Under the pieces are notes generated by a model that had not been told where the DNA came from, did not search any database, and worked only from the letters and a program-made list of their open reading frames with translations. From contig JAUXBV010000062.1 of NCBI GenBank assembly GCA_030619215.1, positions 1 to 10,317 of the forward strand: DNA of 10,317 nt, written 5' to 3'. The translations under genes were made by a program, and so were the position numbers. Of the stretch, positions 1 to 6,851 are shown piece by piece. The DNA is from Fibrobacterota bacterium (lineage in GTDB: Bacteria > Fibrobacterota > Chitinivibrionia > Chitinivibrionales > JANQEN01). Each line of letters opens with the position of its first letter. The first letter of the stretch is position 1.

Positions 1-1287
1 GAAACGGAATCGGAAGATATATCTGAAGGTATGAAAAAACAATTGCAGGAGGAAATCAGAAAAGAGCTGGAAGAGAAGGAGTTGGAATCAATCCGGGAGG
101 ATATGCGGAAAAAACTTACCGAAGAAATAACCGAGGAAATAAGAAATTATGAATATGACACCTTGTATGATCAGGTCGGTAAAAGGATAGAGGAAGAAAT
201 TCAAGAGGATATTGTAAAAAATGATTCTGAAATTATTCGCAGGCAGCAACTTGAGAAAATAGCTGAAGAGATGAGAAAAGAGATAACCGATACGGAAAAA
301 GAGAATATACGAAAAAATGAGCGCGAAAGTATACGGAAGGATGCGGCTGCTATCATAAAAAATACCGAATATGTTGATTTAATGGGCCGGGAGCGTGAAA
401 AAATAAGAGATGATATACATAAGAGAATCCTTGACGACGAAGCGACATTAATAGAAATGGAAGAACACGATATAATTGTCGGGGAGATCAGGAATAAGGT
501 ACGCACGGAAGATCTGGAAGACATTACTGATACAATACGTGAAGAACTGGTAGAATTAATTAAAAAGGAGCTTGACGATAAGGAGAGAGATGAAATATAT
601 AACTCACTGAAAAGCAACATAGTAGAGGAAACGGGCGCCCGTATCAAAAATGAAGAGGCAGGCGATATCAGGAAGAAAGTACGCGAGGAGATTATTGAGA
701 AAGAAATAAAGAACATCCTGGAAAATGAGCTGCCTGCAATCAGGGAAGCGGAGAAAAAACGTATAGCCCAGGAGGAATATGACAGGCTGGTTACCGAGGT
801 TAAAAAACAGATTCATGAAGTTGAAATACAGGATGTAAAAAAGCAGACAAAAGAGGAAATATATAATGAAACGGTTGAGGAGCTGAAAGCTGCGATAAAA
901 AAAGAATTTCAGGTTTCTTTTGACGAAAAGAGAACACAGGAAAAGAAGGTACTTGAGAGAGACATCCAGTCAAAATTCCGAAAAGATATCCAGGAAGAAT
1001 ATCACTACCTCCTCGGCATTATAAATAATATGGATAACTCCCTTAAGAAGGTCGAAGCTCTTGATTCACTCCGGCATACCATTGCCCGAATGATAGAGGA
1101 AAAAAACAAATATAAATTTTTTAATTTAAACGCGACCCAGACAGAAAGTTTTATTGAGTATATGCAGCGGCTTCAGGGCAATTTCGACACCTATTTTGAC
1201 AACCTCGAAAACATTCTCTATTCTGTAAAAATGAAGGTCAACAGTATACTTAACACTCTCGGTGATGATAAGACAAAGATAGGATAA
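1..1287 (+). CDS. Charged helical protein with a strict octapeptide repeat (5' end outside window)
   Basis: The frame is open from base 1, so the gene is cut by the left edge; the first ATG is at 31 but is probably internal. I do not recognise the family. Numbering from that ATG, residues -3 to 300 form 38 consecutive 8-residue units. The first position is always Ile, Leu or Val (Phe in the last unit), position 2 is often Arg, and Glu, Lys, Asp and Arg fill most other positions. The fifth position is either hydrophobic or usually acidic. There is no membrane segment and almost no Pro or Gly in the repeat. Residues 300-418 lose the 8-residue register and resemble an ordinary helical or coiled-coil domain with more aromatic residues. 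A structural, scaffold or tether role is possible, but no function can be assigned. The ispF gene follows 48 bases later on the same strand. Confidence 0.8.
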   Translation, partial: ETESEDISEGMKKQLQEEIRKELEEKELESIREDMRKKLTEEITEEIRNYEYDTLYDQVGKRIEEEIQEDIVKNDSEIIRRQQLEKIAEEMRKEITDTEKENIRKNERESIRKDAAAIIKNTEYVDLMGREREKIRDDIHKRILDDEATLIEMEEHDIIVGEIRNKVRTEDLEDITDTIREELVELIKKELDDKERDEIYNSLKSNIVEETGARIKNEEAGDIRKKVREEIIEKEIKNILENELPAIREAEKKRIAQEEYDRLVTEVKKQIHEVEIQDVKKQTKEEIYNETVEELKAAIKKEFQVSFDEKRTQEKKVLERDIQSKFRKDIQEEYHYLLGIINNMDNSLKKVEALDSLRHTIARMIEEKNKYKFFNLNATQTESFIEYMQRLQGNFDTYFDNLENILYSVKMKVNSILNTLGDDKTKIG

Positions 1288-1335: not shown

Positions 1336-1827
1336 ATGTTTAAAACAGCAATAGGCCAGGATTCCCACCGTTTTGAGCCGGAAGGCTCTAACAAACCACT
1401 GTTACTGGGCGGCGTTGAAATTCCAGGATGCCGGGGGCTTATGGGTAACAGTGACGCTGATGTTATTCTTCATGCAATTACCAATGCGGTCTCCGGCATA
1501 AGCGGCGTTAACATTCTGGGTAAAACAGCCGACGAACTGTGCCTTAAAAAAGGTATCACCGACAGCCGCGTTTACCTTAAAAAAGCCCTGGATACACTTA
1601 CTAATTACAAAGTGACCCATGTATCGCTGTCTATTGAGGGTAAGCGGCCGAATATCGAGGCCCATATCCGGGATATAAAGAATTCGCTGTCTGAATTACT
1701 GTCATTAACACCTTCGGATATTGGACTTACTGCAACAACAGGAGAGGGATTAAGCGAATTTGGCAGGGGAAACGGAATTCAGGTCTTTGCGTTGATAACT
1801 GCTCAAAAGATAGAGAATAAGCAGTAA
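1336..1827 (+). CDS. ispF: 2-C-methyl-D-erythritol 2,4-cyclodiphosphate synthase, divergent subtype
   Basis: IspF converts CDP-methylerythritol 2-phosphate to methylerythritol cyclodiphosphate in the cytosolic MEP isoprenoid pathway. The 163 residues match the family's usual length. Visible motifs are GQDSHRF at 7-13, giving metal ligands Asp9 and His11, then SDADVILHA at 39-47, giving His46, and ATTGEGL at 133-139 followed by GRGNGI near 143-148. The FPDTDP-type loop of Escherichia coli IspF is absent; in its place is an ILGKTADEL segment followed by KGITDS. As I recall, this arrangement occurs in chlamydial IspF. There is no Shine-Dalgarno sequence before the ATG. A TATATT box at 1322-1327 would place a transcription start at the ATG, so a leaderless mRNA is possible. 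No other MEP gene is adjacent. The gene converges on the next one with a 21-base gap. Confidence 0.93.
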   Translation: MFKTAIGQDSHRFEPEGSNKPLLLGGVEIPGCRGLMGNSDADVILHAITNAVSGISGVNILGKTADELCLKKGITDSRVYLKKALDTLTNYKVTHVSLSIEGKRPNIEAHIRDIKNSLSELLSLTPSDIGLTATTGEGLSEFGRGNGIQVFALITAQKIENKQ

Positions 1828-1848: not shown

Positions 1849-3039
1849 CTACTTTTTAACCTTCATAGCCTTTGATTGCTCTTCAATCTCTCTTTCCCAG
1901 ATAACTTCAATCTGTTTATACCAGAAGGCAGGGCTGGTAAACCCTTCAGACGGGACTGATGACGGCATTTTTTTAACCATAACACCAAAATCAGAATACA
2001 GGTTAGACGCCTCTTTCTTCTTGTCAAGATTCAAATTTGCAACGATGAGCGCAAAGTGGCTTACTGCAAGTTCGAATGTAGACAGCTCTTCCGGCTTATT
2101 CATAGCTTGTGTAAACCATGTCCGGCAATTATTTATATGTATCTCTCTCAAATTAGGATCTGCATATTGAATTGTCAGGTAATCAAGAAAACCGACGTCA
2201 AAGGGGGTCGCATCTTTTTTCATAACGGATATCGTCCGGGCACAAAACTCTGCAAGCTCGTATGCCTTATATATTGCAAGGTTACTACGTTTATGTTGAA
2301 AAAAGTTATCACCATACGTAACATCAAGCTCCATCATTTTCTTACGTTTTTTTATAGATTTTGTCAATAAATTCTTGCTTTCATCTGATAGAGAACTTCT
2401 AATTGCTACGGAATTTTCACCCATAACATTAAAATCACTTATCCTGATTGACGCCATGAAACATTCAGTGTATACAATAGGGCATAAACTGAAAAAATCA
2501 AACGGTTCATCACTACTCTTATCAAAAATCATGGGGAACGGGTCGTCCTCACTCCAGCGCCAATCCAATGAATTATGGTCGAAGAGGTATCCGATAACAT
2601 CTTTTGAACCACATACGGTACATGAACAATGTATTCTCCGTAAATCCTCCTCCTCTCCGGTGTACGGTAGATATTTTTCGTACAGGTTTGATAATATTTG
2701 TTTTTCGAGGTCTTCACTTGAATCAATAATGTTGAGGATCTTGTGAATGTTAGTCTCTTCAAGGATACTGAATACTTCCGGTGACGGTGTTAAAAGATAG
2801 AGCTGCCTGTTACGAGACTCCATTTTCTTTTTTAAGTTAATAATTAACCTGATACCGCTTGAATCAATATGTGTGGCACGGGACAGGTCAAGGACAATAT
2901 CCTTTAGTATGCTTTTATTCGTGTATGCGTTGAGTTCAGCCGTCACCGGAATGAGGGAAGCAACGGACATCTCCCCTTCGAAACCGAAGGTATCGTAATG
3001 AAGTGCGGATGTGTGTAAAAGTTTCAATTCTGTACCCAT
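1849..3039 (-). CDS. STAS-domain protein with Cys-rich DUF2225-like C-terminal region
   Basis: The 396 residues fall into two parts. Residues 1 to about 115 look like a STAS (anti-sigma-factor antagonist) domain: the FGFEGEM strand near 18-24, a hydrophobic strand DIVLDLS near 47-53, and DSSGIRLI at 59-66. In SpoIIAA-type proteins the Ser before the Gly (here Ser61) is the phosphorylated residue. Residues about 135-350 contain Cys138, Cys140, Cys143, Cys186 and Cys193 followed by SDFN, then a long helical region. The VCG ... CP...C..AS...DF pattern resembles DUF2225 proteins, but this is an eye match only. There is no signal peptide or membrane segment, so it should be cytoplasmic. The usual switch kinase or phosphatase is not adjacent. 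The start was kept at 3039 because later ATGs would remove the first STAS strands. The ribosome site is weak, but a good promoter lies about 75 bases upstream. Confidence 0.75.
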   Translation of the reverse strand: MGTELKLLHTSALHYDTFGFEGEMSVASLIPVTAELNAYTNKSILKDIVLDLSRATHIDSSGIRLIINLKKKMESRNRQLYLLTPSPEVFSILEETNIHKILNIIDSSEDLEKQILSNLYEKYLPYTGEEEDLRRIHCSCTVCGSKDVIGYLFDHNSLDWRWSEDDPFPMIFDKSSDEPFDFFSLCPIVYTECFMASIRISDFNVMGENSVAIRSSLSDESKNLLTKSIKKRKKMMELDVTYGDNFFQHKRSNLAIYKAYELAEFCARTISVMKKDATPFDVGFLDYLTIQYADPNLREIHINNCRTWFTQAMNKPEELSTFELAVSHFALIVANLNLDKKKEASNLYSDFGVMVKKMPSSVPSEGFTSPAFWYKQIEVIWEREIEEQSKAMKVKK

Positions 3040-5393: not shown

Positions 5394-6851
5394 CTACTTC
5401 ATTATTACAGTTTTTCTAATAAAAAAACTCTTACCTGAATAAAGCTTTAAATAGAATACTCCTGAGCTATATTTACTCCTGTCCCAATTTATAGTATACT
5501 TTCCAGCCTGTTTATAAGAATTAATCAATGTTTCCATTAATCTGCCTCTAACATTATAAACTCGAAGTATAACATTGCCTGAATTTGGTAACTTTATAAA
5601 GATAGATGGATTATATGTGCCTATTGAAAGGCTCAAGGGGTTGTTGTATGATATCATTTTTATTTCAGTTGGTATATTCTGCGTCAACCTCCAGTCAGGA
5701 TCATTCTTGTCCAGCCATGCCATAACCGTATCGGAAAGAAGATTGGTGTCAAGGTCGTTATAACCCACATCCAGGTCAAATATACTTGTCAACTTTATAA
5801 TCGAGTCAGGCAGGTTTGTCAGATTATTGGAATCCAGTTCAAGGTTTGTCAGAAACTTCGGATTACCGATCTCAGGCGGAATGCTTGTCAGCTCATTATT
5901 GGACAGGGTAAGCCACATCAAATAGGAAAGATTTCCTATTTCAGAAGGAATGGTGGTCAACTGATTCTTTGAAAGGTCAAGGCTGTTTAACTTTGACAAG
6001 CTTCCTATTTCTGTTGGTACACTGGTTATTTTGTTCCCGATAAAATTGAATCCTATCAGGCTGGTCAGATTTCCTATTTCAGCAGGTAAAGTTGTCAAAT
6101 CATTCCATGAAAGGTGGAGGTTTTCCAGTTTAGGCAGGCTCGTGACAACTATGGGAAAAGCGCTCAGCTTGTTTGATGTCAAATCAAGAATTAATAAATT
6201 TGACAGGTTAGCTATTTCCGCAGGAAGAGAGGTAATCTGGTTGGTGTCAAGCTCAAGCCATTCCAGGGTTGTGATGCTGCCTATGGTGCTAGGAAGTGCA
6301 GTTAACTGGTTTTCAATAAGCTCGAGTATCTTCAGGGATGAAAGGCTTCCTATTTCAGTGGGAAGGCTCGTAAGGCTGTTTTCCCTGAGGTAAAGATCAA
6401 CCAGTAATGATAAGCTGCCAATTTGCGCAGGAAGGCCGGCAAGATTATTAATTTGCAGATTTAACCATTTTAATGAAGCCAAATCCCCTATCTCCGGTGG
6501 AAGTGCTGTTAATTTATTATTCTTCAGGTTTAGTGAATCCAGGCTTGTCAGGTTTTGAATTTCTGCAGGCAGGGATGTCAGGTTGTTTTGTTCAACGAAA
6601 AGTCTTTTTAATGCGGTCAGGTTTCCTATTTCCGAAGGAAGTTTTTCTATACCTTTCCTGTAAAGATTAAGCAGTACCACCCTGCCCCCGCTTGAGTCGG
6701 TAACAGCAGTAGCGGAAACATCGGCATGTCCGTTGGTATCAAGAATTGCCCTTACCGCAAGTGTGTCGGATTCCCATGTTTGAGAGAAGGTGTTAAGTGA
6801 GAATAGGGAGATTATAAGAATAATACTCATGAATATAAAATTCTTTTTCAT
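5394..6851 (-). CDS. Secreted leucine-rich-repeat protein with T9SS-type C-terminal sorting domain
   Basis: The 485-residue protein begins with a clear Sec signal peptide (Lys-Lys, then a hydrophobic core to about residue 20, with likely cleavage after TFSQ at 24). Residues about 58-356 hold 13 consecutive 23-residue leucine-rich repeats of the bacterial/plant-like type, with a LPxEIGNLxxLxxLxLxxNxLTx consensus. A degenerate fourteenth unit and a cap follow to about 390. Residues about 404-485 match the Por/type IX sorting domain pattern: NPS, a strand to LPNSG, VILRVYNVRGRL, AGKYTINWD, SSGVFYLKL and a final basic strand ending KTVIMK. The family is exported and anchored or released at the cell surface, usually for binding or adhesion; the ligand is unknown. 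GAGG lies before the ATG at a normal distance. No partner gene is adjacent. Confidence 0.9.
   Translation of the reverse strand: MKKNFIFMSIILIISLFSLNTFSQTWESDTLAVRAILDTNGHADVSATAVTDSSGGRVVLLNLYRKGIEKLPSEIGNLTALKRLFVEQNNLTSLPAEIQNLTSLDSLNLKNNKLTALPPEIGDLASLKWLNLQINNLAGLPAQIGSLSLLVDLYLRENSLTSLPTEIGSLSSLKILELIENQLTALPSTIGSITTLEWLELDTNQITSLPAEIANLSNLLILDLTSNKLSAFPIVVTSLPKLENLHLSWNDLTTLPAEIGNLTSLIGFNFIGNKITSVPTEIGSLSKLNSLDLSKNQLTTIPSEIGNLSYLMWLTLSNNELTSIPPEIGNPKFLTNLELDSNNLTNLPDSIIKLTSIFDLDVGYNDLDTNLLSDTVMAWLDKNDPDWRLTQNIPTEIKMISYNNPLSLSIGTYNPSIFIKLPNSGNVILRVYNVRGRLMETLINSYKQAGKYTINWDRSKYSSGVFYLKLYSGKSFFIRKTVIMK

Follow-up and report, generated by a model that had tools for sequence, protein, structure and literature searches.

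A strict octad register with a hydrophobic period of 4.0 in long rod proteins of Fibrobacterota

Coiled coils have been called the best-understood protein fold, and the limits of their periodicity have been estimated (PMC4786415). In the passages that deal with these limits, Hartmann et al. (2016; PMC4786415) take 3.33 residues per turn as the lower limit, expect an upper limit of about 3.9, and give as the most extreme example a local value of 3.8 in YadA. A value of 4.0, that is (7+1)/2, is stated there to lie outside the accessible range, and a one-residue insertion is described as being either spread across two heptads or absorbed by a π-turn. For stable single α-helices (SAHs), the relevant passages of PMC5812594 describe E4(K/R)4 octads as extremely rare in natural eukaryotic proteins, and the SAH score set out there counts hydrophobic i,i+4,i+8 networks as destabilising. 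The natural family described here, with a period of 4.0, up to 59 octads and clear selection, puts the coiled-coil limits to a direct test.

The rod gene and its contig

The window analysed was the entire 10,317-base contig, whose features are collected in Table 1; the MAG to which it belongs totals 3.64 Mb across 579 contigs, with a completeness of 68.6%. The rod gene lies in frame 1 of the forward strand, which is open from base 1 to a stop codon at 1285–1287. Profile A1, built from eight homologues (864 positions), matched the window protein from position 441 only, and the homologues have about 440 extra model positions upstream of its first residue. As the gene is already under way at the contig edge, the ATG at base 31, which had served as the origin of numbering in the initial annotation, is very probably not the true start, and residues are counted here along the open frame. 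Within the C-terminal cap, the motif FNLNxxQTES is conserved, contributing invariant residues to alignments A1, A2 and A3. Elsewhere in the window, the leucine-rich repeat protein is probably an exported surface protein, since it carries a terminal sorting domain.

Table 1. Features of the 10,317-base window
Feature	Position	Strand	Remarks
Rod gene, 3′ portion (Cache-TM-octad rod-cap protein)	1..1287	+	428-codon open frame; 5′ end lost at contig edge
Octad rod, 38 units/304 residues, position 1 always I/L/V/F	19..930	+	Residues 7–310 of frame
C-terminal cap, helical, without octad register	931..1284	+	FNLNxxQTES motif at bases 1120–1149
ispF (YgbB, PF02542)	1336..1827	+	Immediately 3′ of rod gene
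STAS-domain protein gene	1849..3039	-	Convergent; 33% identical counterpart, same position, in G002 (L091)
Leucine-rich repeat protein gene	5394..6851	-	C-terminal T9SS type A sorting domain (TIGR04183, 23.8 bits, cut-off 23)
Three genes near contig end	7117..10260	-	NuoE/NuoF-like plus HoxU/NuoG-N-terminal-like electron-transfer module

The octad register and its hydrophobic period

The claim of 38 unbroken octads with a hydrophobic first position over 304 residues, made in the initial annotation, was borne out. The first octad starts at residue 7 (base 19), and the final unit, which opens with Phe at residue 303, ends at residue 310 (base 930); position 1 is hydrophobic in 38/38 octads (26 Ile, 9 Leu, 2 Val and 1 Phe). 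ILVMF residues make up 79 of the 304 positions (26%); with this composition, the hypergeometric probability for one given register being entirely hydrophobic is p = 1.3 × 10−26. When the residues of the rod were shuffled (n = 20,000), the longest step-8 run was 11, and shuffles with 4-residue words left intact (n = 20,000) gave 25. The longest step-8 run in 476 non-overlapping control frames of at least 250 aa, drawn from 80 loci of other prokaryotes (L009–L088), was 8, and that in each of 35 distinct Cache-TM paralogue frames that lack the rod (289–558 residues, from 37 fetched loci) was 3–6. Scanning steps 5–13 in the window protein produced runs of at least 8 at step 8 (38) and step 12 (9) only; at step 7 the longest ILVMF run was 5. 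A low-complexity or chance origin of the register was ruled out by the shuffles, the control frames and the rod-less paralogues.

Recent DNA duplication was also ruled out as the source of the octads. Octad-versus-octad DNA identity within the rod has a mean of 0.40 and a maximum of 0.75, nine different codons are in use at position 1, and Tandem Repeats Finder returned a single 12-base element of 2.1 copies from bases 1–1300. Three weak Pfam matches of the window protein were taken as composition matches, namely DUF668 (residues 188–242, E = 0.00046, scoring 21 bits where the cut-off is 24) and, under their curated cut-offs, DUF1497 and Alpha-mann_mid; a TssD match on the homologue L006, also under its curated cut-off, was treated in the same way.

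Kyte–Doolittle spectra over periods of 2.2–14 peaked at 3.97–4.02 in 7/7 rods. Spectral power at 4.0 was 10.5–47.0, against no more than 1.2 at 3.5, 3.6, 3.667 and 3.75 in all seven, and hydrophobic phase coherence was 0.63–0.74 at 90° per residue, compared with at most 0.17 at 96–103°. In the best 100-residue segment, power at 4.0 was 12.9–24.2 for the seven family proteins and reached a maximum of 10.3 in the 476 controls. Power at a period of 2.0 ranged from 8.5 to 46.7 across the seven rods (in L005, 40.8 versus 35.1 at 4.0), and at least some of it is a harmonic of the period-4 pattern. The eight-residue register originally described is thus exact, but the basic period is 4.0, with position 5 as a secondary hydrophobic position and the octad superimposed.

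Like coiled coils, the rod is rich in Glu, Lys, Arg and Ile, with 152/304 residues being D, E, K or R. It is nevertheless highly improbable that an ordinary coiled coil of heptads, hendecads or pentadecads was misread by eye or that low complexity produced the pattern by chance: power at 4.0 far exceeds that at 3.5, 3.6, 3.667 and 3.75 in the spectra of all seven rods, the longest runs in 15 family sequences are 6 at step 7, 6 at step 11 and 7 at step 15, and chance is excluded by the shuffles, control frames and paralogues. At the level of sequence, spectra and run lengths together rule out the heptad, hendecad and pentadecad readings. The initial annotation, which had suggested that the protein may be an unusual rod, was right on this point, with neither heptads nor hendecads in the sequence.

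It had also made homologues the test of the eight-residue spacing. Rods that are 21–46% identical to the first row of alignment A4 keep that spacing, with few slips. With misses allowed, the rods comprise at least 38 units in the window protein, 59 in L002, 25 in L003 (and 19 in another phase), 39 in L004, 48 in L005, 13 in L006 and 19 in L007, and at least 17 in P0001, 43 in P0003, 29 in P0007 and 47 plus 12 in P0008. Strict octad runs extend up to 43 (L005). In six homologue pairs, aligned with gap opening at −15, the aligned rod positions in phase were 313/313, 128/128, 345/345, 313/313, 233/233 and 366/369. Position-1 identity in these pairs was merely 43–73%, yet both residues were hydrophobic in 93–100%, which indicates selection for an aliphatic residue at this position. 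The slips consist of the phase change in L003, one 7-residue step in P0008 and, in P0005, one 4-residue deletion together with a large internal deletion, whose size is 168 or 175 residues according to the sequence aligned with it. P0007 has one 48-residue (6-octad) gap relative to each of L004, L005, P0003, P0004 and P0006, with further gaps of 4 residues in three pairs and of 56 residues with P0003. Over all pairs, 161/235 gap lengths were multiples of 4, a tally that is not strong evidence because the aligner favours gaps in phase with the repeat.

Residue preferences were counted in 377 octads from 11 rods, after P0005 had been set aside for its interruption, P0004 as a near-duplicate, and P0002 and P0006 as duplicates. 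Position 1 was ILVMF in 369 octads, partly by construction since segments were chosen to maximise hits; the other eight had Ala (5), Tyr (2) or Thr (1), and none was charged. When seven rods were cut slightly longer, one K/R and one E fell at position 1, at residues just beyond the rod ends. Positions 2–8 played no part in the choice of segments and show sharp preferences of their own. Position 5 was ILVMF in 160 octads, acidic in 144 and basic in 1, position 6 was basic in 177 and acidic in 19, and positions 3, 4 and 7 tended to be acidic or polar. Position 2 was hydrophobic in 56/144 octads when position 5 was acidic versus 16/160 when it was ILVMF, and position 6 in 40/144 versus 20/160. 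The seam is therefore not uniform.

Acidic residues at position 5 recurred every three octads in some rods, giving a 24-residue superperiod in the window protein (permutation p = 0.003) and L004 (p = 0.010) and, weakly, in L003 (p = 0.040) and L005 (p = 0.053). Such a signal would suit a folded-back stack of short helices or hairpins built from 24-residue units. So would the prolines, 15/18 of which occupy position 7, as at a helix start, 13 of these 15 being accompanied by an acidic position 5. However, the superperiod was absent from L002 (p = 0.15), L006 (p = 0.41) and L007 (p = 0.61), Pro or Gly was present in merely 33/144 octads with acidic position 5, and AlphaFold predicts long helices, so that we regard a folded-back stack as quite unlikely.

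Family architecture, distribution and gene neighbourhood

Searching 60 relatives with the window protein located rods in seven genomes from four families of one order, and the same seven were recovered with a rod-only profile from 167 genomes of the phylum. The full profile had matches in 31 of these 167 genomes; beyond the seven rod genomes, they covered only model positions 3–324, corresponding to the Cache-TM part. Protein searches against 5.8 billion sequences, each confined to about 8,000 candidates, had P0001–P0008 among the matches listed. P0001 is a 249-residue relative labelled Chitinispirillia bacterium (Fibrobacterota), P0002, labelled Chitinivibrionales bacterium (Fibrobacterota), coincides in sequence with a stretch of the G008 protein and is contained in L005, and P0006 and the L004 protein are one and the same. 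From these two labels, Fibrobacterota is the likely phylum of the window's own MAG.

As the window protein is without its Cache part at the contig edge, the architecture was read from homologues. The register, its conservation, this architecture and the synteny were all observed directly in the sequences. The parts follow in the order N-terminal hydrophobic segment, domain of about 200 residues, second hydrophobic segment, Arg/Lys residues, rod and cap. Hydrophobic segments were identified by eye; the N-terminal one was present, as far as seen, in proteins with a complete-looking start (L002–L006, P0003 and P0005–P0008), and for L007, as for P0002 and P0004 in their deposited form, it falls outside the start used. 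Judged by profile matches, the domain between the two hydrophobic segments is of the Cache type: Pfam dCache_1 matched 8/19 members of alignment A5 at E ≤ 0.05, the best at 4.9 × 10−14. Among single full-length proteins, L007 gave a sub-threshold dCache_1 match (E = 0.005), and L002, L004 and L005 had no Pfam matches. Kinase, HAMP and MCP signalling domains were not found by Pfam in L002, L004–L007 or the window protein, nor MCP signalling or kinase output domains by NCBIfam in P0003, P0005, P0008 or the window protein; whole L003 was left out of these scans. The initial annotation knew of no described family with so strict a register, and we found none in the open-access literature searched (PMC9369452 contains no octad terms); nor was a curated family found for the rod.

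One paralogue, L127, has a Pro-rich linker between the TM and a segment that matches model positions 718–792, the rod end plus cap start. A linker in place of the rod would be expected if the rod were a spacer. By eye, L129 has the same layout, with a Pro-rich linker where the rod would be and a cap-like segment.

ispF lies directly 3′ of the rod gene in 5/7 loci (the window, L090, L091, L092 and L094) and was not seen near it in L089 or L093; in the window and L091 it is followed by the STAS-domain gene. In G002 and G008, which belong to one genus, tssK, tssL and tssM lie upstream, and the upstream genes scanned in G010 and G005 are not type VI secretion genes; for the window, G004 and G015, at most about 1.1 kb of contig precedes the rod gene. 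Since TssK is present in 31/40 genomes of the order and in 6/7 rod genomes, a link between the rod and type VI secretion was rejected as showing no specific association. TssK was absent from 5/5 genomes of one family of the order (f7).

Other phyla were sampled with the rod profile at E ≤ 1 × 10−4, some genomes being scored on the best 5 candidates of a first look. There were two weak matches (L152 and L154) in 345 genomes of the phylum of G178, one (L155) in 343 genomes of the phylum of G181, one (L152 again) in 30 mixed genomes, and none in 80 genomes of the phylum of G186, where there was no positive control. L154, whose protein presumably resembles trigger factor, has no long octad run. 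Residues 314–477 of L152, a 164-residue C-terminal region, have a peak period of 3.99 with a power of 31, and this region was found only in L152 itself among 148 genomes of its phylum. The L152 gene (1465–2895, minus strand) encodes an acidic protein in a deltaproteobacterial MAG, with a period-4 stretch separate from the family; we take the frame beside it to be valyl-tRNA-synthetase-like. In L155, a 448-aa frame on the minus strand contains 11 consecutive tetrads of ELKxELKx type. Its protein looks leucine-rich near the end, and its genome, from the phylum of G181, was reached through a Planctomycetota record. Shorter period-4 stretches exist in two other phyla, and the genomes sampled contained no rod of comparable length outside the family.

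Candidate geometries and known systems

AlphaFold2 monomer models were obtained from six-row alignments for the window protein and P0003. The window-protein model (mean pLDDT 64, pTM 0.34) has helices at residues 2–26, 28–144, 196–349, 352–370 and 378–424. Helical parts of its rod have pLDDT values of about 47–83 per 10-residue block, and values fall below 50 at residues 126–132 and 138–194, which are partly non-helical. In the P0003 model (mean pLDDT 51), the predicted cytoplasmic part has helices at 400–560, 564–579, 641–736, 738–810, 814–832 and 840–884, and the Cache part is mostly below 50. A low-confidence gap occurs within the rod in both models, which support helicity and nothing finer. 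Foldseek comparison of both with the PDB gave 0 matches at E ≤ 0.001, the best rows for the full-length model being KinD sensor chains at E = 0.18 and above. By sequence, no solved relative was found (best match E = 0.02), and Cache profile A5 had one linker/TM match only among PDB sequences (E = 0.04).

Coil geometry was calculated for two strands at a radius of 4.9 Å, with ideal helices of 3.6–3.63 residues per turn. An 8/2 coil would have a pitch of 44–50 Å, a crossing angle of 63–70° and a curvature radius of 15–18 Å, as against 94–185 Å for 7/2 and 15/4 and 54–77 Å for 19/5. Ordinary helices should not supercoil at 15–18 Å, and self-association would therefore require a non-canonical helix. 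Likewise, because a period of 4.0 cannot be a regular supercoil of ordinary α-helices, each octad would have to be accommodated non-canonically.

Our preferred reading, in which our confidence is evenly balanced, is that the rod is a cytoplasmic, parallel self-associating, non-canonical helical spacer of a Cache-type single-pass membrane protein. A Cache-type sensor domain would lie outside the membrane, and a long α-helical octad rod would lie inside and lead to the conserved helical cap. The weak models and the composition suggest that the rod is helical, and basic residues after the TM point to the cytoplasmic side. We propose parallel self-association along a seam of positions 1 and 5, with positions 2 and 6 forming a basic face on one side and positions 4 and 8 a more acidic face on the other. 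The rod may then serve as a stiff spacer that holds the cap, or signals to it, at a set distance from the membrane; if helical throughout, it would be about 46 nm or more long in the window protein, within a family range of about 16 to 71 nm. The octad could most simply be made up of one α turn (3.6) and one wide π-like turn (4.4), which arithmetically would fit 8.0 residues into two turns without a supercoil, and straight helices stacked side by side would be an alternative packing. Against self-association, an acidic position 5 in 144/377 octads would be an odd core residue.

That alternation of aliphatic and acidic residues at position 5 would instead sit well on a single straight α-helix bearing a barber-pole stripe, covered by wrapping or stacking partners or by laterally stacked copies. 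As the initial annotation had correctly calculated, an 8-residue step in a straight helix goes about 80° beyond two full turns, so that the stripe would circle the helix once in 36 residues. No unusual backbone would be required, and the long helix of Sac3, wrapped by Sus1 and Cdc31 as described in PMC2726291, is a precedent. However, 79/304 ILVMF residues exceed the need of a lone charged helix, the charged faces lie beside the seam as in a self-associating coil, and no gene seen next to the rod gene is a plausible partner (ispF is metabolic, and the upstream region is missing or short in 3/7 loci). We therefore consider the straight helix a tentative and somewhat unlikely alternative.

The self-associating spacer could, in one specific form, be an α/π coiled coil, a fibre in which each octad is an α turn plus a π-like turn and a straight hydrophobic seam runs without supercoil through up to 59 repeats. 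We hold this to be unlikely. If it were true, the wide turn, which leaves a backbone hydrogen bond free, would be marked by proline at position 7, the period-4 stretches of L152 and L155 would be relatives built on that principle, and the coil would be a second exception to the coiled-coil periodicity limits beside α/β coiled coils. The rod shows either a repeated helix geometry undescribed in the open-access literature searched or another design for a straight-helix rod or scaffold.

Among known systems, Cache-domain chemoreceptors and histidine kinases (dCache_1; KinD sensor) have a similar N-terminal hydrophobic segment, Cache domain, TM and cytoplasmic helical rod, whereas the octad protein had no kinase, HAMP or MCP domain in the scans and its rod is without heptads. 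The family thereby adds a sensor-like protein whose cytoplasmic part would be a long rod, without a recognised kinase or chemotaxis domain. Stable single α-helices (ER/K, SAH) resemble the rod in being rich in Glu, Lys and Arg, helix-forming and spacer-like. Half of the window rod is charged, as SAH criteria would favour, but position 1 is hydrophobic throughout and position 5 in 160/377 octads, and the rod differs from SAHs in its 26% ILVMF and in one register that is always filled. Canonical and right-handed coiled coils (7/2, 11/3, 15/4 and local 19/5) are also long, charged and helical, and in them too an aliphatic seam recurs periodically between charged faces; the octad rod departs from them in its period of 4.0, against the limit of about 3.9 and the local extreme of 3.8 given in the periodicity passages of PMC4786415. 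α/β coiled coils, described in the same passages with nonads or hexads (PMC4786415), are alike in that their repeat length is outside the accessible range. The octad rod differs from them in its octads, and the β-layer consensus [ILVM]ATKx[DE] occurred in 0/15 family sequences. Since the repeat falls outside the accessible range in both, the helix must break a rule in α/β coiled coils and the octad rod alike.
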